Part shown: piece by piece, positions 1,088-28,960 of the stretch
How positions within the stretch are numbered: position 1 is the stretch's first letter
Layout of the letters: every line of letters starts with the position of its first letter
DNA from: Clostridia bacterium
GTDB lineage: Bacteria > Bacillota > Clostridia > Oscillospirales > Acutalibacteraceae
Assembly: GCA_017434855.1 (NCBI GenBank)
Contig: JAFRUA010000011.1
Location: 1-33,104 of the forward strand
Direction: 5' to 3'
Length of the DNA: 33,104 nt
Notes under the pieces: generated by a model
Seen by the model: only the letters and a program-made list of their open reading frames with translations
Told to the model about the DNA's origin: nothing
Database searches by the model: none
Program-made: the position numbers and the translations under genes

Positions 1088-2746
1088 ATGAAAAGGTTTC
1101 TTTCCCTGTGCCTGTGCGCACTGCTCACACTCACCTGCGTTCTGCCCGCGCTTGCGGCAAACCCCGGGCTCACCGGCAGTCAGGTCCCGGTGATCCTGCT
1201 CAGCGGTGACGGCGACGTCCTCTATGACAAGGACGGCAACCGCCTGTTTTCCATCCACGACCTTGGCAACATGTCTGCACAAGACGCCGACAAAAAAGAA
1301 CTGCTGCAATCGGTCGCCAACGTGCTGCAGCCCTTTTTGCTGGAGGGCCTGCTGCAAAACAAGTGGGACAACTATTACGATCAGTTGGAAAAGGAGATCG
1401 GCGAGCTGTTTGCCGGCGTGCGGCTGGACAACAACGGCGAAGCCTCCAACGGGTCCGACATCTCAAAGGAGCACCGCGACGAGGTCCGCAACAATATGAC
1501 GGTCGACAAAAAGGGCAAAAAGGGCTACTATGCCTGGAAAGACTATTCCTTCTGGTACGACTGGCGGCTGGACCCCATGGCGGTTGCCGACGAGCTGCAT
1601 GAATATGTGGAGGGCGTCAAGGCAATCACCGGCGCAGAGCGGGTTGCCATCGCCGGGCGGTGCGTTGGCATCAACGTCATGCTGGCCTATCTGGTCAAGT
1701 ATGGCTATGACAGCGTCTACGGCTTTGCGCTGGACGGCTCCAGCTCCAACGGCGGCGAATTCATCAGCGACGCCCTCAGCGGAAAATTCCGGTTGGACGG
1801 TGCCGCGGTGGAACGCTTTTTGATCGACTATGATTCCATCGACAAAATCAAGCTGTCCGACTTTGCGCTGGCCTCCATTGACCTTTTGGTCAAGAGCGGC
1901 GCGGTCGAGCGCCTGTCCAAAACCGTGCGCGCCACGATCTATGACAAGGTGGTGCAGGGCGTGACCAGCGCGCTGGCCCTGGGCACCTACTTCACCCTGC
2001 CGTGCTACTGGTCCTTTGTCAAGGCCGAGGATTTTGAAGAGGCCAAGAACTATGTCTTCGGCCCCGAAGGCAGTGAAAAGCGCGTGCAGTATGCCGGCCT
2101 GATCGAAAAGCTGGACCGCTATCAGGCCGAAGTGGTGCAGCATCTGCCGGAGATCATGGGCGGCCTGCGCGAGCACGACGTCAACACCGTCATCATTTCC
2201 AAATACGGCTTCCAGAACATCCCCATCTGCGCGTCACACGACCTGATCTCTGACCAGTACGCTTCGGTGACCAGCTCGTCCTTCGGCGCGACGACCGCCC
2301 CCTCGCTTTATGAAACGCTGTCTGACGACTACATCGCCAACCGCGTGGCCGAGGGCAAAGGCAAATATATCTCGCCCGACAAACAGATCGACGCGTCCAC
2401 CTGTATTTATCCGGACTATACCTGGTTCACCAAGGGCGCCGGCCATGCCGAATGGTCCGCGACAGAAAACGAACTGATGTATACCGTCACCACGGCCGAC
2501 CGCCAGCTCACCGTGGACGACTTTGACCTGACGCAGTTCATGGTCTATGACCGGGCGACCAAGACCATGTCGCCCATGACGGAAGAGAACTGCCACACCG
2601 AATACTGGACGGCGGACTATGAAACCGACCACCCGTCAAACATCATTCAGTGGCTGCGCGCCTATTTCAATTCGCTGCAGGCGTGGCTGAAAGCCGCGTT
2701 TGAGGCGATCAAGGCAAAGATCGCGGCAAAACAGGCAGAAGGATAA
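1088..2746 (+). CDS. Secreted LCAT/lipase-like alpha/beta-hydrolase with Cys nucleophile, copy 1
   Basis: A 552-residue protein whose signal peptide ends near ALA at 21-23. The start is taken at 1088 (GGGAGG seven bases upstream, then the signal peptide), not at an upstream in-frame ATG. Residues 33-44 (VPVILLSGDGDV) resemble the N-terminal oxyanion-loop strand of LCAT-type lipases. DWRLDP (158-163) followed by GAERVAIAGRCVG (182-194) matches the LCAT/lipase pattern in which GHSxG is the nucleophile elbow, but Cys192 replaces Ser. A helical cap-like region spans about 225-370. SPDKQIDAST (429-438) resembles the acid-loop GDGTVPxxS, pointing to Asp431. His453 in GAGH fits the catalytic His. 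The last ~35 residues form an amphipathic helix. Known Cys-nucleophile relatives in this fold (dienelactone hydrolase, BAAT, PHA synthase) include several acyl-transfer enzymes. Substrate unknown. Confidence 0.8.
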   Translation: MKRFLSLCLCALLTLTCVLPALAANPGLTGSQVPVILLSGDGDVLYDKDGNRLFSIHDLGNMSAQDADKKELLQSVANVLQPFLLEGLLQNKWDNYYDQLEKEIGELFAGVRLDNNGEASNGSDISKEHRDEVRNNMTVDKKGKKGYYAWKDYSFWYDWRLDPMAVADELHEYVEGVKAITGAERVAIAGRCVGINVMLAYLVKYGYDSVYGFALDGSSSNGGEFISDALSGKFRLDGAAVERFLIDYDSIDKIKLSDFALASIDLLVKSGAVERLSKTVRATIYDKVVQGVTSALALGTYFTLPCYWSFVKAEDFEEAKNYVFGPEGSEKRVQYAGLIEKLDRYQAEVVQHLPEIMGGLREHDVNTVIISKYGFQNIPICASHDLISDQYASVTSSSFGATTAPSLYETLSDDYIANRVAEGKGKYISPDKQIDASTCIYPDYTWFTKGAGHAEWSATENELMYTVTTADRQLTVDDFDLTQFMVYDRATKTMSPMTEENCHTEYWTADYETDHPSNIIQWLRAYFNSLQAWLKAAFEAIKAKIAAKQAEG

Positions 2747-2778
2747 AATAAAGTATTAAGTATAAAGGAGATCATACC

Positions 2779-4443
2779 ATGAAACGTGCTTTGTCATTCT
2801 TGCTCTGTCTGCTGCTCATTGTCCCGGTTTTGACCACCCCCCCTCGTGTTCGTGCGGCGGCGCCAACACTCACGGGCAGTCAGATTCCGGTGATCCTGAT
2901 CGGCGGCGACGGTGATCTGCTGTATGACGCAGATGACAACCGGCTGTTTACGATCCATGACCTGGGCCACATGACCGAGGGCGGCGACCGCAGCGAGCTG
3001 CTGAAATCCGTCGCCAATGTGCTGCAGCCCTTCCTGCTGGAGGGCCTGCTGCAAAACAAATGGGACAACTATTACGATCAACTGGAAAAAGAGATCGGCG
3101 AGCTGTTTGAAGGCGTGCCGCTGGATGAAAACGGCGAGGTCAGCAACGGCAGCCACATTGCAAAGGCGCACCGCGACGAAATGACCAGGAACATGGCCGC
3201 CGACAAAAAAGGCGCCAAAGGCTACTACGGGTTCCAGGATTATATTTTCTGGTACGACTGGCGCTGCGACCCGCTGGCCGTCGCCGACGAGCTGGCCGCA
3301 TACATCGAAGGGATCAAAGCGTCCACCGGCGCAGAGCGGGTTGCGGTCACCGGCCGCTGCGTGGGCTGCAACGTCATGCTGGCCTATCTTGCCAAATACG
3401 GCTATGACAGCATTTACGGCTTCGGTCTGGACGGCACCAGCTCCAACGGCGGTGAATTCATCAGCGAGGCCATCAGCGGAAAGTTCAAGCTGGACGGCCC
3501 GGCGCTGGAACGCTTTTTGATCGACTACAATGCGCTGGGCAAGATCACCGTTTCCGACTTTGCGCTGGCAACGATCGACCTTTTGGTCAAAAGCGGCGCG
3601 GTGGAGGGTCTGACCAAAGCCGTGCGCGCCACGATCTATGACAAGGTGGTGCAGGGCGTGACCAGCGCGCTGGCGCTTTCCACCTTCTTTACCATGCCGT
3701 GCTACTGGGCCTTTGTCAAGGCAGAGGATTATGAAACCGCAAAGGACTATGTCTTCGGCCCCGAGGGCAGCGAAAAGCGTGTCAAATACGCCGGCCTGAT
3801 CGAAAAGCTGGACCGGTACCAGGCGCAGGTGGTGCAGCAATTGCCCGAACTGATGGGCGGCCTGCGTGAGCACAACGTCAACACCGTCATCTTTTCCAAG
3901 TACGGCTTTCAGAACATCCCCATCTGCGCGTCAAGCGACGTGATCACCGATCAGTACGCCTCGGTCACCAGCTCTTCCTTCGGCGCAACGACCGCCGACT
4001 CGCTGTATACCACCCTGTCAGACGAGTATATTGCGCAGCGCGTGGCAGAGGGCAAGGGCAAATATATTTCGCCTGACAAGCAGGTGGACGCCTCCACCTG
4101 TATTTATCCGGATTTCACCTGGTTTTCCAAGGGCGCGGGCCACGGCGACTGGACACGCACCGAAAACGAGCTGATGTACACCGTTTCCACAGCCGACCGT
4201 CAGCTCACGGTGGATGACTTTGACCTGACGCAGTTCATGGTCTATGACCGTAACACCGGCGCCATGGCGCCCATGACGGAAGAAAACTGCCACACCGAAT
4301 TCTGGGCGGCGGACTATGAAACCGACCACCCGTCCAACCTCTTTCAGCGGCTGCGCGCGTTCCTGAACTCGTTGAAAAACTGGATGAAAGCAGCGTTTGA
4401 GGCGATCAAAGTCAAGATTGCGGAAAAGCAGGCGGAAGGATAA
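2779..4443 (+). CDS. Secreted LCAT/lipase-like alpha/beta-hydrolase with Cys nucleophile, copy 2
   Basis: A 554-residue close paralogue of the preceding gene, 32 bases downstream and probably in the same operon; AAAGGAG precedes the ATG. The signal peptide runs to about VRAAA (24-28) and contains a C7 tract (2837-2843) encoding Thr-Pro-Pro. GRCVG places the candidate nucleophile at Cys194. The motifs DWRCDP, SPDKQVDAST and GAGH (Asp and His of the proposed triad) are intact. The C-terminal 40 residues form a Lys-rich amphipathic helix. The last ~50 bases and the first ~70 bases are almost identical to those of the next gene, suggesting recombination between copies. Like copies 1 and 4 it belongs to the GRCVG subgroup. 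Function is inferred from fold-level motifs only. Confidence 0.8.
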   Translation: MKRALSFLLCLLLIVPVLTTPPRVRAAAPTLTGSQIPVILIGGDGDLLYDADDNRLFTIHDLGHMTEGGDRSELLKSVANVLQPFLLEGLLQNKWDNYYDQLEKEIGELFEGVPLDENGEVSNGSHIAKAHRDEMTRNMAADKKGAKGYYGFQDYIFWYDWRCDPLAVADELAAYIEGIKASTGAERVAVTGRCVGCNVMLAYLAKYGYDSIYGFGLDGTSSNGGEFISEAISGKFKLDGPALERFLIDYNALGKITVSDFALATIDLLVKSGAVEGLTKAVRATIYDKVVQGVTSALALSTFFTMPCYWAFVKAEDYETAKDYVFGPEGSEKRVKYAGLIEKLDRYQAQVVQQLPELMGGLREHNVNTVIFSKYGFQNIPICASSDVITDQYASVTSSSFGATTADSLYTTLSDEYIAQRVAEGKGKYISPDKQVDASTCIYPDFTWFSKGAGHGDWTRTENELMYTVSTADRQLTVDDFDLTQFMVYDRNTGAMAPMTEENCHTEFWAADYETDHPSNLFQRLRAFLNSLKNWMKAAFEAIKVKIAEKQAEG

Positions 4444-4478
4444 AAGAATATAGTATTAAGTATAAAGGAGATCATACC

Positions 4479-4637
4479 ATGAAACGTGCTTTGTCATTCT
4501 TGCTCTGTCTGCTGCTCATTTTCCCGGTTTTGACCACCCCCCCCTCGTGTTCGCGCGGCGGACTTTGTCGATATCGACTCACGCCGCAGCCCGATGCCCA
4601 TCGTACTCATCACCGGCGATGCTGCCGCAATCTATGA
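4479..4637 (+). other. Out-of-frame signal peptide reading frame of copy 3
   Basis: AAAGGAG and an ATG at 4479 duplicate the start region of copy 2 almost base for base, encoding the same MKRALSFLLCLLLI signal peptide. An eighth C (4537-4544; copy 2 has seven) shifts the frame, so this reading ends at TGA 4635-4637 after 52 codons. With seven C the frame would run on into the hydrolase body and give a normal secreted protein of about 562 residues. The lesion could be a phase-variable switch, a true pseudogene mutation, or a sequencing or assembly error in a homopolymer. Confidence 0.8.
4537..4544 (+). repeat. Homopolymer C8 tract in signal peptide of copy 3
   Basis: Eight consecutive C at the place where the duplicated copy 2 has seven (2837-2843). 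Slipped-strand mispairing in poly-C tracts of 7-12 is a known mechanism of phase variation, for example in Campylobacter surface-structure genes. The tract lies just before the expected signal peptidase site. Confidence 0.85.
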
Positions 4638-6168
4638 CGCAGACGGCAACAAAATCTTTAAGATCAGTGAAATCGGCGACACGCTGAAAAGCGCCGGCGA
4701 CGGCGACAACGATCTGAAAGAATCCGTCAAAAACGTGTTGCTGCCGTTCCTGACCAAGGGGCTGCTCGGCGGCAACTATGACGAGTATTACGCCCAACTG
4801 GAAAAAGAGATCGGCGAGTTGTTTGAACAGGTCCGGCTGGACAACAACGGCGACCCGCAATACGGCACGGGCATTCTGCCGGAAGACGTGGACGCAAGAC
4901 GCATCGAAAACATGCGCGACCAAAAAAGCGCCGACGGCACCTATGGCTGCTATGATTACCATTTCTGGTACGACTGGCGGCTGGACCCGATGCAGATTGC
5001 AGACGACCTGCACGAATACATTCTGAACGTCCGCAAAGTAACCGGCGCCGAAAAGGTCGGTCTCATCTCAAGCTGCCTGGGCACCAACGTCTGCATGGCC
5101 TATATCGCCAAATACAACGACGCCTTCCCGCTGGAGATCAACGGCTTCGGCGTCAACGCGGCGCTGATCAACGGGTCAGAGTTCATCGGCGAGGCCATCA
5201 GCGGCAAATTCCATCTGGACGCCAACGGCCTGAACCGTCTGTTCATCGACACGGGCGAATGGGGCTGGCTCAACGTGCCCGAAATCGTCACCGCCACGCT
5301 GGACCTGGCACAAAAGAGCGGCCTGCTTGACGGCATGAGCGCCCTGCTGCACAAAACGCTGTATGACAAGCTGGTGGAGGGCGTCACGTCCGCGCTGGCG
5401 CTGGCCACATTCTTCACCATGCCAGGGTACTGGGCCTGTGTTTCCAACGAGGATTATGACGAAGCGATCCGCTATGTCTTCGGACCCGAGGGCAGTGAAA
5501 AGCGCACACAGTACGCCGGCCTGATCGCAAAACTGGACAATTACCACAACACCGTCTCCAGGCATGTGCCGGAGCTGATGCAGTCCATCCACGACAACAA
5601 CGTCAAGCTGTGCATCGAATCGAAGTACGGCTTCCAGATGGTGGCAGTCTGCGAATCAAGCGAAGTGATCGGCGACCAGTTTTCTTCGGTCACAAGCTCG
5701 TCGTTCGGCGCAACCACCGCGCCTTCAATCTATGAAACGCTGTCTGACGATTACATCGCGCAGCGCGTCGCCGAGGGCAAGGGCAAATACATTTCGCCCG
5801 ACAAGCAGATTGACGCGTCCACTTGCCAGTTCCCGGACTACACCTGGTTTGTCAAGGGTGCCACCCATTCCGAGCGCACCGGCTTTGAAGACGACATCCT
5901 GACCGCCGTTGTGAGCGCCGACCGCCAGCTGACGGTTGACGACATCAAATACACCCAGTTCATGGTCTATGACAAGCACGCAAACACCATGGAACCCATG
6001 ACAGAAGAGAACTGCCACACCGAGCTGTGGACTGCGGACTATGAAACCGACCACCCGTCCAACATCATCCAGCGCCTGCGTGCGTTTTTCGCTTCGCTGA
6101 AAAACTGGCTGAAGGTCGTGTTTGAGGCGATCAAAGTCAAGATTGCGGAAAAGCAGGCGGAAGGATAA
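4594..6168 (+). CDS. LCAT/lipase-like Cys-nucleophile hydrolase copy 3 (signal peptide out of frame)
   Basis: The 524-residue in-frame body of the third tandem paralogue. As it stands it begins at MPIVLITGDA, which corresponds to the first core strand of its relatives, so the export signal is separated by the frameshift at 4537-4544. In this numbering DWRLDP is at 127-132, the nucleophile elbow is SSCLG with Cys161, and the Asp loop SPDKQIDAST and His in GATH follow. It differs from copies 1, 2 and 4 in having SSCLGTNV rather than GRCVG, and in this and other central positions is closer to the fifth copy at 23236. Both ends, however, match copy 2, so it looks chimeric. The ORF stays open over 1.5 kb, arguing that the frameshift is recent or reversible. 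Confidence 0.75.
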   Translation: MPIVLITGDAAAIYDADGNKIFKISEIGDTLKSAGDGDNDLKESVKNVLLPFLTKGLLGGNYDEYYAQLEKEIGELFEQVRLDNNGDPQYGTGILPEDVDARRIENMRDQKSADGTYGCYDYHFWYDWRLDPMQIADDLHEYILNVRKVTGAEKVGLISSCLGTNVCMAYIAKYNDAFPLEINGFGVNAALINGSEFIGEAISGKFHLDANGLNRLFIDTGEWGWLNVPEIVTATLDLAQKSGLLDGMSALLHKTLYDKLVEGVTSALALATFFTMPGYWACVSNEDYDEAIRYVFGPEGSEKRTQYAGLIAKLDNYHNTVSRHVPELMQSIHDNNVKLCIESKYGFQMVAVCESSEVIGDQFSSVTSSSFGATTAPSIYETLSDDYIAQRVAEGKGKYISPDKQIDASTCQFPDYTWFVKGATHSERTGFEDDILTAVVSADRQLTVDDIKYTQFMVYDKHANTMEPMTEENCHTELWTADYETDHPSNIIQRLRAFFASLKNWLKVVFEAIKVKIAEKQAEG

Positions 6169-6201
6169 AAAGATATCAGACAAGCGAAAGGATGTACCAT
6201 T

Positions 6202-7863
6202 ATGAAACGAACGCTTTCTTTCCTGCTGTGTGTGCTGCTGCTCTTCACGGCGATGATGCCCGCGTTTGCGCGGCTGCCGGAGATCTGCGGCAGCCAGATC
6301 CCCGTCGTCATTCTGGCCGGCGACGGCGAGGCGCTGTATGACGCCGACGGCAACTATGTCTTTCAGATCGACGACCTCGGCAGCCTGACCGAGGGCAGCG
6401 ACCGAAAAGAGCTGCTGAGATCCATCGCCAACGTTCTGCAGCCGTTTTTGCTGGAAGGTCTGCTGCAAAACAAATGGGACAACTACTATGAAAAGCTGGA
6501 AGAAGAGGTCTCCGAGCTGTTTGAAAACGTGCGTCTGGATGAAAACGGTGAAGTGACCAACGGCACCGATATTTCCAAAGCCCGCCGCGATTACCTGCGC
6601 GACAGCGTCACCGTGGACGCCAAGGCGGATAAGGGCTACTATGATCTGTATGACTATCACTTCTGGTACGACTGGCGGCGCGATCCGCTGGCCATTGCAG
6701 ACGAGCTGGCCGCGTACGTTGACGCGGTCAAGGCGATCACCGGCGCGCCAAAGGTCGCGATTTCCGGCCGCTGCGTGGGCTGCAACGTGATGCTGGCCTA
6801 TCTTGCCAAATACGGCTACGACAGCGTTTACGGCTTTGGCTTTGACGGTACCAGCTCCAACGGCGGCGAATTCATCAGCGAGGCCATCAGCGGAAAATTC
6901 AAGCTGGACGGCCCGGCAGTCGAGCGCTTTTTGATCGATTATGACGAAACGGGCATGATCGACCTGTCGGACTTTGCCGTGGCATCGATCGACCTTTTGG
7001 TCAAAAGCGGTGCAGTGGAGGGTCTGTCCAAAACCGTCCGCGCCACAATTTATGACAAGGTTGTCTATGGCGTGACCGGCGCGCTGGCGCGGTCCACCTT
7101 CTTTACCATGCCCTGCTACTGGGGCTTCGTGGAGCCGGAGGATTATGAGGACGCGAAACTGTATGTCTTCGGCGAAGCGGGCAGCGAAAAGCGCGTGCAG
7201 TACGCGGGACTGATCGAAAAGCTCGACAACTATCACAATCAGGTGGCGGAGCGCATTCCGGAGCTGATGCAGGGTCTGCAGACGCACGGCGTCAAGACCG
7301 CCATCATTTCCAAGTACGGCTTCCAGATGCTGCCGATCTGCGTCTCGGGCGTGGACGTGGTCTCCGACCAGTACGCCTCGGTCACCAACTCCTCCTTCGG
7401 CGCGACGACCGGGACGCTGTATGGGCCCCTCTCGGATGAGTACATCGCGCAGCGCGTGGCCGAGGGCAAGGGCAAATACATCTCTCCCGACAAACAGGTG
7501 GACGCATCCACCTGCATGTTCCCGGACTACACCTGGTTCACCAAGGGCGTGCGCCACGGGGAATGGACACGCACCGAAAACGAAATTCTTTACAGCGTCA
7601 TCACTGCCGACACGCAGCTTACCGTCGACGACTTTGACCTGACGCAGTTCATGGTCTGGGACCCGGAAACCGAAACCATGTCGCCCATGACGGAAGCGAA
7701 CTGTCATACCGAGTATTGGACCGCCGATCAAAAGGTCGACCACCCGGCGTGCATGTTCCAGCGTCTCCTGCCCTTCCTGCGGTCGCTGAAGGTCTGGCTG
7801 AAAGAAGCGTTCAAGGCGCTGAGGGTCAGGGCGGAAGAAAGGATCACAGAGCGCAAAGGATAA
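6202..7863 (+). CDS. Secreted LCAT/lipase-like alpha/beta-hydrolase with Cys nucleophile, copy 4
   Basis: A 553-residue protein and last gene of the array, 33 bases after copy 3 with GAAAGGATG before the ATG. The signal peptide ends near AFA (21-23). GRCVG gives Cys191 as candidate nucleophile. DWRRDP, SPDKQVDAST and His in GVRH keep the proposed Cys-Asp-His set. Compared with copies 1 and 2, the C-terminus is more divergent (ends RITERKG) but still an amphipathic helix with alternating Leu/Phe and Lys/Arg. A strong bidirectional terminator follows at 7893-7924, closing the array. The substrate cannot be read from sequence; the conserved Cys rather than Ser argues for a thioester intermediate and possibly acyl transfer. 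Confidence 0.8.
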   Translation: MKRTLSFLLCVLLLFTAMMPAFARLPEICGSQIPVVILAGDGEALYDADGNYVFQIDDLGSLTEGSDRKELLRSIANVLQPFLLEGLLQNKWDNYYEKLEEEVSELFENVRLDENGEVTNGTDISKARRDYLRDSVTVDAKADKGYYDLYDYHFWYDWRRDPLAIADELAAYVDAVKAITGAPKVAISGRCVGCNVMLAYLAKYGYDSVYGFGFDGTSSNGGEFISEAISGKFKLDGPAVERFLIDYDETGMIDLSDFAVASIDLLVKSGAVEGLSKTVRATIYDKVVYGVTGALARSTFFTMPCYWGFVEPEDYEDAKLYVFGEAGSEKRVQYAGLIEKLDNYHNQVAERIPELMQGLQTHGVKTAIISKYGFQMLPICVSGVDVVSDQYASVTNSSFGATTGTLYGPLSDEYIAQRVAEGKGKYISPDKQVDASTCMFPDYTWFTKGVRHGEWTRTENEILYSVITADTQLTVDDFDLTQFMVWDPETETMSPMTEANCHTEYWTADQKVDHPACMFQRLLPFLRSLKVWLKEAFKALRVRAEERITERKG

Positions 7864-7940: not shown

Positions 7941-10043
7941 TTATGCGTCAAGGGTGATCCACATCGCGGGGCGAACGGCATAGTTGCTGAAAGCGACACT
8001 GTAGCCACGGGAATTGACGGAGCCATAGTCGATAACATTAGCAGCGCCGTAAGGAAGGGAGCCGGGCGACCGCAGCCACCACCAGCAGGCGGCTGTGCCA
8101 CCTATGGTGGTATTGGAGTCGCTTGCCCAAGCGCCATGTTCGATCGCATACGCCGTTGGCGCACACTTTCTTGTCTCGTCTGAACTAAAATACATGCTCA
8201 CTTCGCCAATGCTCAGAAGAAACACCTTGTCCTGTGTATTGTTGCCACCCTCTGTTCCATGGTCGGGGTTGTCATCGTTTTTCACCGTCGTCATCTGTAT
8301 TTTGCTCTGTTCTGCAGTACTGAACGCATTATTATAAAAATCATTATTCAGCCATGTCCGCAGTGTGCAGGTTTCCCACGTCACATCGTATTTTTCTGGA
8401 TAGTATTTCTGGCAGTCCAGACCGTACCTGCTGATCACCAGCGCTTTGTCGCCGTCACGGTCCAGCACCAGCCACTCGATGGGTTCGGGGCCGTTGGACG
8501 TGTCGTTGTCCTGCTCATACCGGCCAAAGGTGATATAATCGCCGGTGTTGCCGGTGAGGGCGGTATCTTCGGCGGTGGGCGATGTGCTTTCTGTCTGCGC
8601 GGCATCGGGATACTGAAAGGTTTGCGGCGGCATGTCGGCAATCTGGCTGAAATCGACCGTGATGTCGGCGCTGTAACTGTAAATGGACCAGACGCGCTGA
8701 CCGTCAATGTCCTTCAATCCGGCGATCATGGTGCCCTCGCCGTTCACGGCATAGGTTTCGCCGTAAGCGTCGTGAAAATACTCGATCGTGAGGCGATACC
8801 GGTGGTCATCCATCATTTCGGCCGATTTGATTCTCGACAACTCGCCCCAATCAAGAGAGTATCCGTACGACGGGAAATAGAAGTCACCGTCTTTGTATCC
8901 GCACGGCGTCGAAAAACCGGCGACGCCATCACAAAACGCATTTCGGTCAAAGGGCTGCTCCATATTCAGAACATTTTCCGCAAGCCAAAGAATGTTCTTT
9001 TCAGAATACTTTAAATAATAAGTCGATTCCTCCAACTCCGGGAACGGATCATTTGATGCATCGAACATCGCCTCTTCCGGTTCCTCAAAGAACAATTGAT
9101 ACAGCTTGGAATAAGTGATATAGAACAGGGCGCCCTTCAGGTCAGCCGAATCCATGTCCGCACTGTTGAACGCTGCCGTTTGCTTTTCAACACCGGTCTC
9201 TTCGTCCGGCATGAAAAGCGTTGAGGCAAGTGTATTCAAAATTGAATCGTAGTTATGAAAATCTGTACCAAGCACGTCAAAGTCTGCGGCGGTCGCCGTA
9301 AGATACATCGACGCTTTTGCCGGAATGATCTCTTTGCCGCTGTCTTCCAGCGTCGCTTCATCCAGGTCGTCAAACGTCTTCATCTGCGTTTCGGCCTGCT
9401 TGTAGTCCTTCGCTTCGCGGTCATAGTCCGCCTGCGAAATGACCTGCAGCATATCGGCATAGATCTCGCGCTCGTCCGCCGGCAGCGCAGCATCCGTTTC
9501 AAAGCAGTCGTTCATCCCGTCGATGATGCGGTCCGGGTCGTGGATAACGGCCTTGACGGGAACCACTTCGCCGTCCCTGACCTCATAGAAGACCGTCACT
9601 TCCAGATGCGCGTAATCGTCGCCGGTTTCGACCAGACGGCCGTCTTCGGTCACAGTCATCGGCGCTTCGCTTGTCGCGTCAGTCAATTGCCGGATGCCCT
9701 CGCTGTCTGCCCTGTAAAGGTCATAGGCCGTGGCAGGTTCGTCCGCGCGGCCGATGAACAGTTCCGGCGTCTTGTCGTTGTCAAGATCGACAAAGGCAAA
9801 GCTCGGCTCGGCGCTCTTGTCCAGATTCGCAAGGTTCGGCGACAGGTTGTTTTCGACAAATTTTTCGCGGGACCAACCCTCGTCAAAGGCCTGCTTATAC
9901 TTTTTCAGCACCGGGGCATAAAGCGCCTCATATTCCGAGGTGTCCTCCGGCTCCGCTTTGGCGCCGGGGCTCTTTTTCACACAGCCCGCAATCGCGGTCA
10001 GCAGCAGGGCCAGCGTCAGCACCAGGGCAATTGTTCGTTTCAT
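7941..10043 (-). CDS. Modular lipoprotein with C-terminal DUF6273-like domain
   Basis: A 700-residue predicted lipoprotein with lipobox AIAGC (Cys21). Residues about 35-245 form a module shared at high identity with the lipoprotein at 18636-20474: EALYAPVLKKYKQAF, then FAFVDLDNDKTPELFIG, an acidic loop resembling a Ca-binding FG-GAP/VCBS repeat. The middle (about 250-500) is unrecognised. The last ~165 residues (ITFGRYEQ, EWLVLD, WWWLRSPG, AVRPAMWI) match the DUF6273 pattern, related in look to formylglycine-enzyme/C-type lectin-like folds. It probably sits on the outer face of the membrane as a ligand-binding protein. It is last in the valS-lipoprotein run, and a fragment of the valS 3' end lies just upstream, marking a past tandem duplication. 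Confidence 0.85.
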   Translation of the reverse strand: MKRTIALVLTLALLLTAIAGCVKKSPGAKAEPEDTSEYEALYAPVLKKYKQAFDEGWSREKFVENNLSPNLANLDKSAEPSFAFVDLDNDKTPELFIGRADEPATAYDLYRADSEGIRQLTDATSEAPMTVTEDGRLVETGDDYAHLEVTVFYEVRDGEVVPVKAVIHDPDRIIDGMNDCFETDAALPADEREIYADMLQVISQADYDREAKDYKQAETQMKTFDDLDEATLEDSGKEIIPAKASMYLTATAADFDVLGTDFHNYDSILNTLASTLFMPDEETGVEKQTAAFNSADMDSADLKGALFYITYSKLYQLFFEEPEEAMFDASNDPFPELEESTYYLKYSEKNILWLAENVLNMEQPFDRNAFCDGVAGFSTPCGYKDGDFYFPSYGYSLDWGELSRIKSAEMMDDHRYRLTIEYFHDAYGETYAVNGEGTMIAGLKDIDGQRVWSIYSYSADITVDFSQIADMPPQTFQYPDAAQTESTSPTAEDTALTGNTGDYITFGRYEQDNDTSNGPEPIEWLVLDRDGDKALVISRYGLDCQKYYPEKYDVTWETCTLRTWLNNDFYNNAFSTAEQSKIQMTTVKNDDNPDHGTEGGNNTQDKVFLLSIGEVSMYFSSDETRKCAPTAYAIEHGAWASDSNTTIGGTAACWWWLRSPGSLPYGAANVIDYGSVNSRGYSVAFSNYAVRPAMWITLDA

Positions 10044-18635: not shown

Positions 18636-20474
18636 TTATTCGTTTTCCATTTGAACGAAGTCAATGGGTTCTCCAACAGCCGGATTGTCTACGCTTGCAT
18701 TCCAATCCTGATCATATTCAAAAAAGATCTGGTCCGACAGATGCAAAGCACCGTTCTCAATACTGATGTATTGGTAATAACCGATACCTGTATGTGCGTA
18801 ACACAGGACCACAGCGTGATCGTCATCGTCAAACGATCCGGCGCTGGATTCGCCAAGATAGACTGCTTCGTTATTTTGGCAGGTATAAAAACTGACATGA
18901 TTGTCTGCCATCGACTGTCCCGATTCAATCAGCAGTTCCGGCACGCCGTCTTCGTCAATATCGTGATAAGCATAGCTGCACCAGCCGTAACGGTTTTCGT
19001 CGACGTCCTGTTTGTACTGCTGCAGCACGGGCGCGTAGATTTCTTCATAGGATACGTCTTGCGGAGTGTCGGACATCTCCTGCTCCGTGGAAGCAGTACT
19101 GCCGTCAGAATAAATAAACGGTTCTTCACCCGGAGTATATGGGACCAGAATGTCCCCTTGTAAATAAAAAGTTTCATAACGGTGAAAATTCAAACCGTCT
19201 TCGGTCAATGTAAAAGGTATATCCTCCATCCAGTTTTCTCCGGGACGTTCTCCTCCATTGTAATACGGGGTTCCTTCTAATACTTCTTTCGTCTGCTGCC
19301 AAATGATACTTTCACGTTCCTCAACAGAACATCGGAAAAAGAAATCATACGTTTTTTCTTCGCCGGTCAAAACATCCCAAGTGTAACTTTCATAAAATGC
19401 ATAAGGATGAACACCACCTGCCCAATCAACAAATCTTTCAAAAATCGAAAGATAACCGTGGTCATTATAGTTTAGTTCGTATTGGTAATCATAATACAGA
19501 GGGAGGAAAGATTCATTATTCTTGGCCATATCTTCAACCCGAATAAGCGCATCTTCCACTTCGCTTTGTTCCATGTATTTACATTTTTCAATTGATTTCC
19601 GGATCACTTCATTTGCAGCAATTTCTCCGGGCGTAGTACCAAGAAAATACGGATACTCAATCGTGTTTGAGTAAACCAGAATACCTGAATTGCTTTTGTG
19701 ATCAAAGGTTTCTTTTCTCATTTCATATGGAACCGGTGAAACGTCTGTTTCCATCGGCACGATCTCTTTGCTGCTGTCTTCCAGCGTTGCTTCGTCCAGC
19801 TCCTCAAACGTCTTCATCTGGGTCTCGGCCTTCTTATACTGTGTCGCCGCGCGGCTATAGTCCTCTTCGCTGATGACTTCCACCAACTCGCCATAAATCT
19901 CTTTTTCGTCCGCCGGCAAGGGGGCTGTGGCGCGGAAGAACGGGTGCATGCCGTCGATCATCATATCCGGATCGTGGATCAGGGCTTCGACCATCGTCAC
20001 TTCGCCGTCTTTGACCTCATAGATCACGGTGACCTCCAGGTGCGCATAGCTGTCGTCGGTTTCGATCATGCGGCAATCGTCGGTCAGGGTCAGGGTCGTG
20101 TCCTGCGCGGCGTCGGTCAACTGGCTGATGGTGTCGTCTTTGATGCTGTACATATCATATGCCGTGGCGGGTTCGTCCGCGCGGCCGATGAACAGCTCGG
20201 GCGTCTTGTCGCCGTCAAGATCAACAAAGGCAAAGCTCGGCTCGGCGGTTTTCTCCAGGTTCGCAAGGCCCGGCGCCAGATGATTTTCCGCAAACTTTTC
20301 TCTGGACCAGCCTTCGTCAAACGCCTGCTTGTATTTTTTCAGAACGGGGGCATACAGCGCCTCGTATTCCGACGTGTCTTCGGGTTCGGGACTGCCGTCC
20401 GTCTTCTTTATACAGCCCGCAAATGTGGTCAGAAGCAGAACCAGCGTCAGCGCCAGGGCAACGGCTCGTTTCAT
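18636..20474 (-). CDS. Modular lipoprotein with RsiV/DUF3298-like domain
   Basis: A 612-residue lipoprotein (lipobox FAGC, Cys21), started at 20474 with AAAGGAG eight bases upstream. Residues about 30-240 are a near copy of the N-terminal module of the lipoprotein at 7941 (YEALYAPVLKKYKQAFDEGW, FAFVDLDGDKTPELFIG). Residues about 265-470 resemble the DUF4163/DUF3298 extracellular domain of anti-sigma factor RsiV (GGVHPYAFYESYTWDVLTGE, PFTLTEDGLNFHRYE). The last ~120 residues repeat the first motif pair (EIYAPVLQQYKQDV, YAYHDIDEDGVPELLIESG). The middle is markedly AT-rich: one 60-base line at 19441 has 30% GC against 62% at 20221. So a foreign module appears to have been joined to a local N-terminus. 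It may sense an extracellular ligand. Confidence 0.85.
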   Translation of the reverse strand: MKRAVALALTLVLLLTTFAGCIKKTDGSPEPEDTSEYEALYAPVLKKYKQAFDEGWSREKFAENHLAPGLANLEKTAEPSFAFVDLDGDKTPELFIGRADEPATAYDMYSIKDDTISQLTDAAQDTTLTLTDDCRMIETDDSYAHLEVTVIYEVKDGEVTMVEALIHDPDMMIDGMHPFFRATAPLPADEKEIYGELVEVISEEDYSRAATQYKKAETQMKTFEELDEATLEDSSKEIVPMETDVSPVPYEMRKETFDHKSNSGILVYSNTIEYPYFLGTTPGEIAANEVIRKSIEKCKYMEQSEVEDALIRVEDMAKNNESFLPLYYDYQYELNYNDHGYLSIFERFVDWAGGVHPYAFYESYTWDVLTGEEKTYDFFFRCSVEERESIIWQQTKEVLEGTPYYNGGERPGENWMEDIPFTLTEDGLNFHRYETFYLQGDILVPYTPGEEPFIYSDGSTASTEQEMSDTPQDVSYEEIYAPVLQQYKQDVDENRYGWCSYAYHDIDEDGVPELLIESGQSMADNHVSFYTCQNNEAVYLGESSAGSFDDDDHAVVLCYAHTGIGYYQYISIENGALHLSDQIFFEYDQDWNASVDNPAVGEPIDFVQMENE

Positions 20475-20514
20475 CACATCGTCTCCTTTCGGCATTGCAA
20501 ACGATTTCATTTCA

Positions 20515-20543
20515 ATCCTACCATATCCCGACAAAATTTGCAA
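20515..20543 (-). promoter_or_regulatory. Promoter of the RsiV-like lipoprotein gene
   Basis: TTGCAA (20538-20543), 17-base spacer, TAGGAT (20515-20520) on the minus strand. Confidence 0.6.
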
Positions 20544-20636: not shown

Positions 20637-22517
20637 TCATTCGCTCGGGATCAGCACGATCGCCTGCCGCCCCAGCAGGTTCCACCGCGCCTCAAACGTG
20701 CTGCGGTCATAGGTCCGCGTGCCATAGTACGGATCCATCAGCCAGACATAGGATTCCGAATAGCCCTTGATGACAAAAACGTGCGTGCCGCGCGGGTAGG
20801 AAAAATAATCGTAGCCGCCGTTGCCGTTGGGGATGTACCAGGCATTGACCGTCCTGGGCACCTGCATCTGATAGGTCGCCCACACGATGAGCGGCCGCCC
20901 CTGCGACAACTGGTTGCAGACCAGCTCAAAATTGCAGCCCGTCAGGTTGATTGCCGTGTAGCCGCCGCCGCGCGCGTCGATGGCGGTTTGCAGCGACCGG
21001 GTCACGCAGGGCGAAAACGCGCCGTACCCGGGATGGGCGGAGGTGTAGCCGCTGCGGGGGTTGCCGACGAAATAGTCATAAATGCTGGGGCCCACGGGCA
21101 TCCCGTTGACGTAAACGATGTCTTTGCGCGGGATGGTGGCAACCATCTGGTCCAGCGTGATGCTGAAGCCGTAGTACCGCAGCAGCGCCGTGCAGCTGGC
21201 GGCCTCGCACCCGGTGGGATAGTTCGGCAGCTGCGACACGAACGGCACCGCCAGCGGCGACACACTGACACTGGCGCTGGCCGAAACCCCGTTTGCGGTG
21301 GTCACGGTCACGGTGGCGCTGCCCACGGCCAGGGCATGGATCACGCCGTCTTCATCCACTGTGACGGCATAGGGATGCGAACTGGAATAGGTATAGCGGG
21401 TCTCCAGCGTGTTGGCCGGCAGCACGGGGTGCAGCTTTGCCGCCTGACCCGGGCGCAGCGAATAGTCGGTCTTTTTCAGCGAAATGGACGTCGGCGGCGC
21501 CAGAATGGTGACGGTCGTCTGCGCCGTCACGCCGTTATATGTGCGATAGGTCAGGGTCACAACGCCCTTTTTGCGTGCATAGAACACGTTGTTGCCCAGC
21601 GGCTTCAGCCGTTTGGGGTCGCTGCTTTCGATCGTGACACCCTGCGCACCATAGCCGTCCTTAAAGCTGTAGGTCGCCTTGTAACGGTCGCCGATGCCCA
21701 GCGTCACCTTTTTGCGGCCCGGAATGATCTTTTTGGGGGCTTTCAGTACCGTGACGGTGCAGCTTGCGCTGACGCCGTTATAGGTTGTGACAGTCACGAC
21801 TGCCGTACCGGGGGCCTTGGCGCGCAGCAGCCCGTTTTCGGGGTTCACCTTGACCACCGCCGGGTCCGATGTGGCATAGACCAGCGCACCCTCAAACGCA
21901 CCGTCGTTGACCGTCGCCGTCAACTGCGCGGTCTCTCCTTTGCCCAGAGACAAAGACTTGCTGCTCAGGCGCACGCGCTTGGGCGCCTTTTGCACCGTGA
22001 CAACGCAGATGTCGCTGCGGCCGTTATAGGTTTCCACCAGCAAAACGGCCGTGCCGCTGTGGATCGCCTTGAAATCGCCGTCGCCCAGGGGACGCAGCAC
22101 GTCGGTGTTGCCGCAGGAATAGGTCAGGGCAGAGGCGCTGCCTGCATTCACCGCCGCCTGCAGATGCAGCGTTGTTCCGATGCCTGTTGTCACCTCTGAC
22201 GCCGGGAAAGCCACCGATTTCGGCGCCGCCATCACCGTCACCCGCGCCAGCAGCGCGTTGTCTGCCGTGCGCAGCTCGGTTTCACCCACGGCACGGCCGG
22301 TCACCTCGATCATGTTGACCGAAACCACGGCGTCATCAAAGGTCGGCGGCGTTTCACCCAGGTCGGCAAGCGCCGGCACCAGGCCGGTTTCACCCACGCC
22401 GAGCGTCAGATGCAGCGGTGCGTCAGCCGCGGCGGCCAGCGTACCGAACGAAAAAAACAAAAACAGGAACAACAGACAGGCAAACAAGCGATTACGCAAG
22501 GCGGCGACCCCCTTCAT
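20637..22517 (-). CDS. Surface protein with Ig-like (BIG2) repeats and C39-like cysteine peptidase domain
   Basis: A 626-residue exported protein with a signal peptide ending near AAAA at 28-31. About four BIG2-type Ig-like repeats follow (about 98-175, 178-257, 259-338, 340-420; each ends in TYNG or TANGV and a VTV strand), with a degraded one before them. The C-terminal ~200 residues fit Peptidase_C39_2: VPFVSQLPNYPTGCEAAS with Cys437, GTHVFVIKGY with His579 and LMDPYYG with Asp595. Such proteins are extracellular or wall-bound cysteine peptidases; the substrate is unknown. ATG 22517 lacks a ribosome site; AAGGGGG just inside the frame suggests TTG 22499 as the real start. It is transcribed away from the small peptide gene at 22843. 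Confidence 0.88.
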   Translation of the reverse strand: MKGVAALRNRLFACLLFLFLFFSFGTLAAAADAPLHLTLGVGETGLVPALADLGETPPTFDDAVVSVNMIEVTGRAVGETELRTADNALLARVTVMAAPKSVAFPASEVTTGIGTTLHLQAAVNAGSASALTYSCGNTDVLRPLGDGDFKAIHSGTAVLLVETYNGRSDICVVTVQKAPKRVRLSSKSLSLGKGETAQLTATVNDGAFEGALVYATSDPAVVKVNPENGLLRAKAPGTAVVTVTTYNGVSASCTVTVLKAPKKIIPGRKKVTLGIGDRYKATYSFKDGYGAQGVTIESSDPKRLKPLGNNVFYARKKGVVTLTYRTYNGVTAQTTVTILAPPTSISLKKTDYSLRPGQAAKLHPVLPANTLETRYTYSSSHPYAVTVDEDGVIHALAVGSATVTVTTANGVSASASVSVSPLAVPFVSQLPNYPTGCEAASCTALLRYYGFSITLDQMVATIPRKDIVYVNGMPVGPSIYDYFVGNPRSGYTSAHPGYGAFSPCVTRSLQTAIDARGGGYTAINLTGCNFELVCNQLSQGRPLIVWATYQMQVPRTVNAWYIPNGNGGYDYFSYPRGTHVFVIKGYSESYVWLMDPYYGTRTYDRSTFEARWNLLGRQAIVLIPSE

Positions 22518-23235: not shown

Positions 23236-24912
23236 TCACTTTGCCAGCTTTGCCTTCACAAAATTGAACAGCGCCACCAGCCACTTGAAGAAGGACATCA
23301 GGCCGGTGTAGATCGTGGTCTTTTTGTCGGTCGCGGGCTGCTTCATTTCGTCCGTCGTCCAGTGCTCGGTGTCGCAGTTCTCCGCCGTCATCGGCGCCGT
23401 GGTCTTCGCATCGTGATCATAGACCATGAACTGCGTCAGGTTGAAGTCGTCCACGGTCAACTGACGGTCCGCCGTCATCACCGTATACATGATTCGGACC
23501 TCCGCGTCGGTTCGCAGGGTGTGGGTGGCGTTCTTGGTGAACCAGGTGCAGTCCGGGAACAGACAGGTGGAGGCGTCGATCTTTTTGTCGGGGGAGATGT
23601 ACTTGCCCTTGCCCTCGGCGACGCGCGATGCGATGTACTCGTCAGACAGGGTGTCATAGATGGTGGAGGTCGTAGCGCCGAAGGAGCTGTGGTTGACAGA
23701 GACGTACTGGTCAGACACCAGGTCGTTGTCCTGACAGATCGGCACGATCTGGAACCCGTATTTGCAGAGGATCGCAAGATTGGCGCCGCTGTCGACCGCG
23801 TCCTGCAGCAGCTCGTCCGCTTTCAGCGCCACTTCGTTGTGGTACCGCTCGATCTTTTCGATCAGGCCGGCGTACTTCTCACGCTTTTCGCTGCCCTCTT
23901 CGCCGAAGACATACAGCAGCGCGTCGTCATAATCCTCTGCAGAGACGCAGGCCCAGTAGCACGGCATCGTGAACACGGTGGACAGCGCGAGCGCGCTTGT
24001 CACGCCCTCGACCACCTTGGCATAGATCGTCTTTTTGACCGAGTCGCTCAGGGTGCCGAAGATGCCGCTTTTGCTCAGCAGGTCGAGTGTGGCGGTCGCG
24101 AAGGCGGGCATGTCAAATCTGTCGACGGCGTCCGTGTCGGTGAGGATGCGGTTGAGCGCGTCCATGTCCAGATGGAACTTTCCGCTGATCGCCTGGCTGA
24201 GGAATTCGGAGCCGTTGTTGAGCGACGCAAGCGCCCCGATGCCGGAGAGGTCCTCGGTCCCGTAGAGCGAGAGATAGGCGAGCAGGACGTTCGTGCCGAG
24301 GCAGGCGGTGCCGAGGGCGACCTTGTCGGAATGCGTCGCGGCCTTCACGCTTGCGATATAATCATGCAGCTGCACGGCGACCTCCAGCGGGTCGAGCCGC
24401 CAGTCATACCAGAACTGGTAGCTGTACATATCATAGCCGTTCGCGCCCTTCTTGTCGCGGGAGGCGTTGTTTGCGTTCTCTGCGCGGCGGGCGGAGGAGA
24501 TACCGGTTCCCGCCGGCGCGTTGCCGTTCTCGTCCAGGCGGCCTTCGGCGAAGAGATCGCCGATCTCTTTTTCAAGATTTTCAAAATACGGGTCCCAGTC
24601 GTCCATCAGCAGGCCCTGCACCAAAAACGGCATCAGGACGTTCGCGATGGAGGTATAGAGCTCGGTCTTTTCTTCGCTGTCTTCGTCTTCGCTGTCATCG
24701 CTGAAAACGCTGCTGAAGATGCCGAGCAGGCCGTTTTCGCTGATCTTCAGGATGACCTCGTCGTTTTCATTATAAATCGCTTCGCCGTCGCCCGCGAGGA
24801 AAACGATCGGGGTCTGGCTGCCCGTCCGCGTCGGGGTGAAGGCCGCAAATGCGGGGACGGCCACGGTGAACAGCAGCACCGCGGTCAAAAGGATGGTCAA
24901 TGCTTTTTTCAT
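23236..24912 (-). CDS. Secreted LCAT/lipase-like alpha/beta-hydrolase with Cys nucleophile, copy 5
   Basis: A 558-residue paralogue of the four-gene array, placed alone 15 kb away on the other strand. The start at 24912 has AAGGAG eight bases upstream; signal peptide ends near AFA (21-23). TPIVFLAGDG (34-43) is the first core strand. DWRLDP (170-175 region) and GTACLG (Cys204) form the nucleophile region, with Ala before Cys where copies 1, 2 and 4 have Arg. SPDKKIDAST and NATH supply the Asp and His. It has an acidic insertion (DDSEDEDSEEK, 72-82) not seen in the others. The C-terminal tail (TGLMSFFKWLVALFNFVKAK) is a clear amphipathic helix. It is divergent from the Ca2+ ATPase, and the pair is flanked by the 54-bp inverted repeats. 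Confidence 0.8.
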   Translation of the reverse strand: MKKALTILLTAVLLFTVAVPAFAAFTPTRTGSQTPIVFLAGDGEAIYNENDEVILKISENGLLGIFSSVFSDDSEDEDSEEKTELYTSIANVLMPFLVQGLLMDDWDPYFENLEKEIGDLFAEGRLDENGNAPAGTGISSARRAENANNASRDKKGANGYDMYSYQFWYDWRLDPLEVAVQLHDYIASVKAATHSDKVALGTACLGTNVLLAYLSLYGTEDLSGIGALASLNNGSEFLSQAISGKFHLDMDALNRILTDTDAVDRFDMPAFATATLDLLSKSGIFGTLSDSVKKTIYAKVVEGVTSALALSTVFTMPCYWACVSAEDYDDALLYVFGEEGSEKREKYAGLIEKIERYHNEVALKADELLQDAVDSGANLAILCKYGFQIVPICQDNDLVSDQYVSVNHSSFGATTSTIYDTLSDEYIASRVAEGKGKYISPDKKIDASTCLFPDCTWFTKNATHTLRTDAEVRIMYTVMTADRQLTVDDFNLTQFMVYDHDAKTTAPMTAENCDTEHWTTDEMKQPATDKKTTIYTGLMSFFKWLVALFNFVKAKLAK

Positions 24913-28147: not shown

Positions 28148-28960
28148 TCATCCGAACAGTGCGGAGAAGAACGCCTTGATCGTACCCCAAAGGGTGCGGA
28201 AGAAGTTGGCGGGCTTGAAGAACGCCTTGACGATGTCGCCAAAACTCTTCTTTTCACTGCCCGGTTCGGGAATGGCCTTTCCGCAGTTGTCGCAGATCTT
28301 GTCGCCGTCTGCATCAACGTGCTCGCCGGTGGGCAGCAGATCACAGCCCTGGGTCATCAGGTGGCCGCAGCCCGTGCAGTATGTGTCGCCGCTGTAGCCA
28401 TGTTCGCCGCAGGTGGGTTCTTTCGCGTCACGGACCTCCAGCTCGTAATCGCCGTGATGCTTTTCGTTGATCGGCGTCACATGGCCGGTGACCAGCAGCG
28501 CGTTGCACTCGCCGCAGTATTTGTCGCCGCTGTAGCCGGCGTCGGTGCAGGTCGCATCCACTTTGCCGCGCACCTCAACCTGACCGGTATGGGTCGTGCT
28601 CTTGGGAATCGTTGTGCCCATGCTGATCGGCTCGCCGCAGGCCAGGCAGTAGACGTCGCCGCTGTAACCTTCGTGCGCGCAGGTCGCGTCCACCGCATCA
28701 CGCACTTCGGTCTTGTAGTTTGCGTGGTTGGTGGGAACCAGCCCGGTATCTTCCACGCCGGAAAGGATCGTGCCGCAGTCGGCGCACTTGGTGCCGGCCG
28801 TTTTGCCGGAATGGGTGCAGGTACCTTCCACCGCCGGAACGTCGATCACGTGCTCATGCGGGCAGGTTTCGGGGTCCGCATCAGCCGCCAGCGCCGCAAA
28901 GGGAAGCATGAGGCACAGAACCAGCAGAACGGATAACAGGATCGCAAAACATTTTTTCAT
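28148..28960 (-). CDS. Secreted protein with four CxxC repeats and amphipathic tail
   Basis: A 270-residue exported protein with a signal peptide ending near ALAA (22-25). It carries about four repeats of 40-45 residues with the pattern ATC-x3-GYSGD-x-YC-x2-C followed by a Pro/His segment and EVR (about 33-75, 76-120, 121-165, 166-210). A shorter DADGDKICDNCGK unit follows (about 215-230). The CxxC plus upstream Cys and His residues suggest small metal-binding (zinc-ribbon-like) knuckles, though that is inference. The last 32 residues (SFGDIVKAFFKPANFFRTLW) form an amphipathic helix like the hydrolase tails. AAGGAGG supports the start. It follows the YhhN gene by 51 bases with a small hairpin (28986-29001) between. 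Function unknown. Confidence 0.85.
   Translation of the reverse strand: MKKCFAILLSVLLVLCLMLPFAALAADADPETCPHEHVIDVPAVEGTCTHSGKTAGTKCADCGTILSGVEDTGLVPTNHANYKTEVRDAVDATCAHEGYSGDVYCLACGEPISMGTTIPKSTTHTGQVEVRGKVDATCTDAGYSGDKYCGECNALLVTGHVTPINEKHHGDYELEVRDAKEPTCGEHGYSGDTYCTGCGHLMTQGCDLLPTGEHVDADGDKICDNCGKAIPEPGSEKKSFGDIVKAFFKPANFFRTLWGTIKAFFSALFG

Follow-up and report, generated by a model that had tools for sequence, protein, structure and literature searches.

The 33,104-nucleotide stretch of Clostridia bacterium DNA analysed here (contig JAFRUA010000011.1; hereafter, the window) encodes five paralogous proteins resembling secreted LCAT-like hydrolases, in which the serine (Ser) of the nucleophile elbow is replaced by cysteine (Cys). 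This locus raises the question of whether such proteins are dead enzymes or have continued to catalyse with a Cys nucleophile. On the basis of sequence comparison and a structure model, we consider it likely that they belong to a family of secreted alpha/beta-hydrolases that resembles LCAT and phospholipase A2 and is specific to one lineage; one clade of this family would have exchanged Ser for Cys and remained catalytic by the mechanism proposed below.

Five paralogues with an elbow cysteine

The open reading frame (ORF) listing places four of the genes in a row on the + strand and the fifth on the - strand, with 54-79% identity to gene 1 among the window paralogues. All five carry a TGC codon at the elbow, confirming the Cys that an earlier, sequence-only reading of this DNA had reported (GRCVG in three, SSCLG in one and TACLG in one), and the shared LCAT-like layout that it had described, comprising DWRxDP, SPDKxIDAST and a later His, was found in 5/5 proteins. 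The ratio of nonsynonymous to synonymous substitution rates (dN/dS) was 0.22-0.50 across ten pairwise comparisons, indicating that the window genes are under purifying selection. Because the gaps between genes 1 to 4 are only 32, 37 and 33 bases, these four probably form one operon. The genes (2 to 5 from the ORF listing and paralogue alignment) and the proposed functional sites of gene 1 are as follows.

1088..2746, + strand: gene 1, predicted secreted LCAT-like protein of the Cys type, 552 amino acids, GRCVG; structure model with a predicted local distance difference test score (pLDDT) of 90.0
1661..1663, + strand: TGC codon of Cys192, proposed nucleophile of gene 1, flanked in the model by strand 186-191 and helix 194-205
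2252..2254, + strand: codon of Asp389, proposed acid of gene 1, aligned with the Asp of LCAT GDGTV
2444..2446, + strand: codon of His453, proposed catalytic His of gene 1, after strand 445-449
2642..2740, + strand: C-terminal helix of gene 1 in the model, residues 519-551, judged amphipathic and cationic by eye
2779..4443, + strand: gene 2, Cys-type paralogue, GRCVG, Cys194
4481..6168, + strand: gene 3, Cys-type paralogue, SSCLG; body open from the ATG at 4594, the 4481 start being out of the body frame
6202..7863, + strand: gene 4, Cys-type paralogue, GRCVG, Cys191
23236..24912, - strand: gene 5, Cys-type paralogue, TACLG

Secretion, also claimed from the sequence, is supported by a signal-peptide-like N terminus in 4/5 proteins but not by gene 3, whose body frame has none: the reading frame opened by the ATG at 4481 is carried out of the body frame by 8 consecutive C at 4537. 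Gene 2 has a run of 7 C at 2837, where gene 3 has 8; runs of at least 7 C or G number two in the window. The ribosome site and signal-peptide start are near-identical in genes 2 and 3 (2779-2860 and 4481-4600), and the bodies differ. Phase variation, recent loss or assembly error are possible explanations for the frame break.

An LCAT-like fold and its proposed triad

Structure prediction and a fold search of gene 1, the check suggested by the sequence-only reading, returned an alpha/beta-hydrolase fold with LPLA2 and LCAT as the best structural matches. The definition of this fold in PMC11878206 orders nucleophile, acid and His along the chain, and the secondary structure of the model follows it, with the elbow after beta5, the acid after beta7 (or beta6) and the His after beta8. 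The overall fold is that of LCAT and lysosomal phospholipase A2 (group XV; PF02450; 5txf, 4x97). The listed differences from these enzymes are the Cys in place of Ser, a score below the PF02450 cut-off, a large helical cap and the SPDKxIDAST insert, which has no counterpart in them.

Conservation was assessed in a pool drawn from the window's own genome and from named and unnamed loci; it had 207 members, of which 204 were of sufficient length and 198 remained after near-copy removal. The choice of queries biases this pool toward Cys. The Ser nucleophile of the LCAT GxSxG motif is Cys in 5/5 window genes and in 135/198 pooled rows; 61 of the other rows have Ser and 2 have Gly. Asp389 and His453 are kept in 193/193 Cys or Ser rows with both positions aligned, three more being gapped.

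The triad acid is more likely Asp389, in an SDQ stretch equivalent to LCAT GDGTV, than Asp431, which had been named at first. A joint alignment of ten proteins places the GDGTV Asp in the Asp389 column, and neither this Asp nor the His varies; the three LCAT proteins in that alignment have nothing corresponding to the SPDKxIDAST stretch that holds Asp431 and Asp435. Across the pool, the Asp389 column contains Asp in all 196 lettered rows (2 gaps), and Asp431 is replaced in 8/196 (S in two, N in two, and A, E, R and G), with Ala occurring in an otherwise intact Cys member of the window's own genome. We rejected Asp431 as the acid on two grounds: its replacement in members that are otherwise intact, and the absence of an equivalent stretch in the three aligned LCAT relatives.

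Origin and spread of the exchange

The two rows with a Gly elbow (EGMG; L190 and L191) have both lost the catalytic His, to Arg and to Asn, and are likely natural pseudoenzymes. True loss therefore looks different from the Cys members, for which a dead enzyme is unlikely, as the earlier reading had also held.

What had been taken for a family of five extends well beyond the window. Its genome (2.74 Mb, 97.9% complete) has 26 matches, 15 with Cys and 11 with Ser elbows when aligned together, and all 26 keep Asp in the Asp389 column and His in the His453 column. Ser and Cys copies also coexist in other single genomes: one, taken whole, has 11 Cys and 6 Ser members among 18 ORFs, and another of a different genus, also taken whole, has 4 Cys and 9 Ser among 14, with one ORF lacking the elbow in each. 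The tandem genes therefore belong to a large family in which Ser and Cys types are mixed.

A FastTree phylogeny of 202 rows, built with the elbow columns removed, required 2 Cys/Ser changes, against a shuffle mean of 52. With IQ-TREE (109 rows, three LCAT proteins as outgroup) we again counted 2 changes, against 35 in shuffles; Cys arose once, on a branch supported at 100. This search was short, several of its branches are long and the outgroup rows are gappy. Inside the Cys clade, three rows (GRSIG; L211, L219 and L221) had returned to Ser. It thus appears from these trees that Ser changed to Cys once, that the family expanded, and that one branch went back to Ser. Directly after the oxyanion Gly, 50/54 Ser rows have a hydrophobic residue and 120/131 Cys rows a polar or charged one (Asp in 92); the Cys clade is further marked by Lys372, Tyr285 and Tyr307. 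The reverted rows still have Gln after the oxyanion Gly and Arg before the nucleophile. Because the trees support only one switch to Cys, these markers reflect correlated change along a single branch and do not record recurrent events.

Matches were found in 34/34 genomes of the genus, with at least 8 to 27 in each, and at least one in 49/200 genomes (33/135 genera) of the bacterial family, where ~7 candidates per genome were scored. Any match occurred in 16/197 genomes of the order and 28/299 of the phylum (best 8 and 5 candidates scored per genome; own genome counted in both). Outside the bacterial family, no reported match in these 197 and 299 genomes exceeded ~140 of 487 positions, and a more permissive search stretched some LCAT-type proteins to 220-230. 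These mostly short matches speak against a wide distribution, and in the genomes sampled, full-length members were confined to a single bacterial family. The named relatives, which are the best 80 of 573 candidates, come from assemblies labelled Clostridia, Ruminococcaceae, Oscillospiraceae and similar; many were sampled from ruminant gut sites, and some from rabbit or horse.

No constant gene neighbour was found among the 80 named loci. The commonest non-family neighbour cluster, at 12/80 loci (the next ones at 7/80), is probably an antisense frame, because in its example locus it runs across the family gene on the other strand. Elsewhere in the window, two lipoprotein-like ORFs (7941-10043 and, on the - strand, 18636-20543) have N-terminal parts that are alike by eye and ends that differ, the first ending in DUF6273 and the second in a sub-threshold PdaC match; domain shuffling is possible. 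Also on the - strand, an ORF at 20640-22517 has Big_2 domains and a C39-like peptidase domain, and an unrelated secreted-looking ORF at 28148-28960 has a similar cationic amphipathic tail (p 0.03).

Proposed mechanism and alternatives

In the mechanism that we favour, a Sec signal peptide would direct export, and the cationic C-terminal helix may seat the protein on a lipid or cell surface; 114/188 family tails were amphipathic at p<0.05 in a shuffle test. Asp389 would orient His453 and His453 would activate Cys192, as sequence and fold both support. The Cys192 thiolate would attack an acyl ester; to judge by the fold, the loop that follows Gly40 would hold the oxyanion together with the backbone following Cys192. 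Water, or an acceptor that is an alcohol or an amine, would then resolve the thioester acyl-enzyme. LCAT itself transfers an acyl group from phospholipid to cholesterol. From LCAT kinship and thioester chemistry, we infer a lipid acylhydrolase with acyl-transfer capacity. More tentatively, the single Ser-to-Cys exchange, with a rebuilt oxyanion loop, might have led to thioester acyl transfer on gut lipids and many-copy expansion, with one Ser reversion on a Cys-adapted background.

Several results weigh against this interpretation. The Foldseek template modelling (TM) scores are low, at 0.23-0.26 on the query for the best four. No window protein passed any Pfam cut-off; LCAT PF02450 was matched by 0/5, and had no match over cut-off in the whole genome. 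Of seven Ser paralogue fragments, one barely exceeded that cut-off (21.3 versus 21). The LCAT profile match is limited to the N-terminal half of the family, and a search of PDB sequences with family profiles listed Tle4 and lipases of bacteria, and neither LCAT nor LPLA2. A C-terminal profile comparison gave the same Asp389 pairing weakly (E 5e-4, probability 31). Asp435 (Asp in 201 and Asn in 1 of 204 rows) is conserved nearly to the level of Asp389 and may, for this reason, play some role. Only 1/5 window tails is amphipathic at 0.05, gene 1 having p 0.096.

Cys nucleophiles are established elsewhere in this fold, BAAT being one such enzyme. Profiles for dienelactone hydrolase, BAAT, PhaZ and polyhydroxyalkanoate (PHA) synthase gave no match in the five proteins to E 1 (Pfam, NCBIfam; HMMER filters drop weak matches), and the extracellular PHA depolymerase PhaZ7 (NF050060), a Ser-type enzyme, gave at most 13.6 bits against a cut-off of 450, in the elbow region only. 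Cys-Asp-His triads like that proposed for the window family occur, according to a 2024 superfamily survey (PMC11878206), in the clusters of dienelactone hydrolase, PhaZ and PHA synthase, which are other families of the same fold. The Cys-lipase evolved from CALB in the laboratory (6isr; PMC6642262) is artificial, whereas the exchange seen here is natural, is of an age that let it found a large clade and was apparently once reversed. Our literature search, which reached few subscription papers, found no natural LCAT-like or lipase family with Cys.

A dedicated acyltransferase, passing acyl groups mostly to a sterol, ceramide, sugar, amino acid or amine with hydrolysis as a side reaction, is somewhat unlikely. 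LPLA2 and LCAT as nearest structures would suit it, as would the polar residue after the oxyanion Gly in the Cys clade, and acyl-polymerising PHA synthase (PMC5509742) and ring-forming nonribosomal peptide synthetase thioesterases (PMC11298585) are among the Cys enzymes of this fold. However, Cys does not imply transfer: the fold also includes hydrolases with a Cys nucleophile, namely dienelactone hydrolase and PhaZ (PMC11878206). A plain secreted hydrolase of small or bulky plant, lipid or polymer esters, in which Cys suits the substrate and no transfer takes place, is possible but doubtful: the engineered Cys-lipase hydrolyses bulky esters well (PMC6642262), and many of the best 80 relatives come from the guts of plant-eating animals, but the structural matches are led by LCAT/LPLA2 and not by small esterases.

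That Cys192 is structural, in a disulfide or metal site, or that the Cys clade consists of non-catalytic binding proteins, is improbable. Cys439 is conserved in 119/135 Cys rows and could be its partner, but a Cys192-Cys439 disulfide is unsupported, as Cys439 is also present in 41/61 Ser rows and is replaced in 15/135 Cys rows that keep Cys192. Rows that keep the His have only Cys or Ser at the elbow, the Gly-elbow rows show what loss looks like, and a structural residue would not be expected to revert to Ser.

The family points to a large repertoire of secreted enzymes in gut Clostridia that lacks a specific annotation, with many of its members coming from assemblies of ruminant origin. Protein engineers have found the Ser-to-Cys exchange hard to make work, and here is a natural test case: in a lineage resembling LCAT, nature seems to have carried out the exchange and undone it once. 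Because of this natural exchange and reversal, and because Ser and Cys copies share single genomes, existing sequences can be used to look for the surrounding residues that enable Cys to function and for the chemistry that it may have brought.
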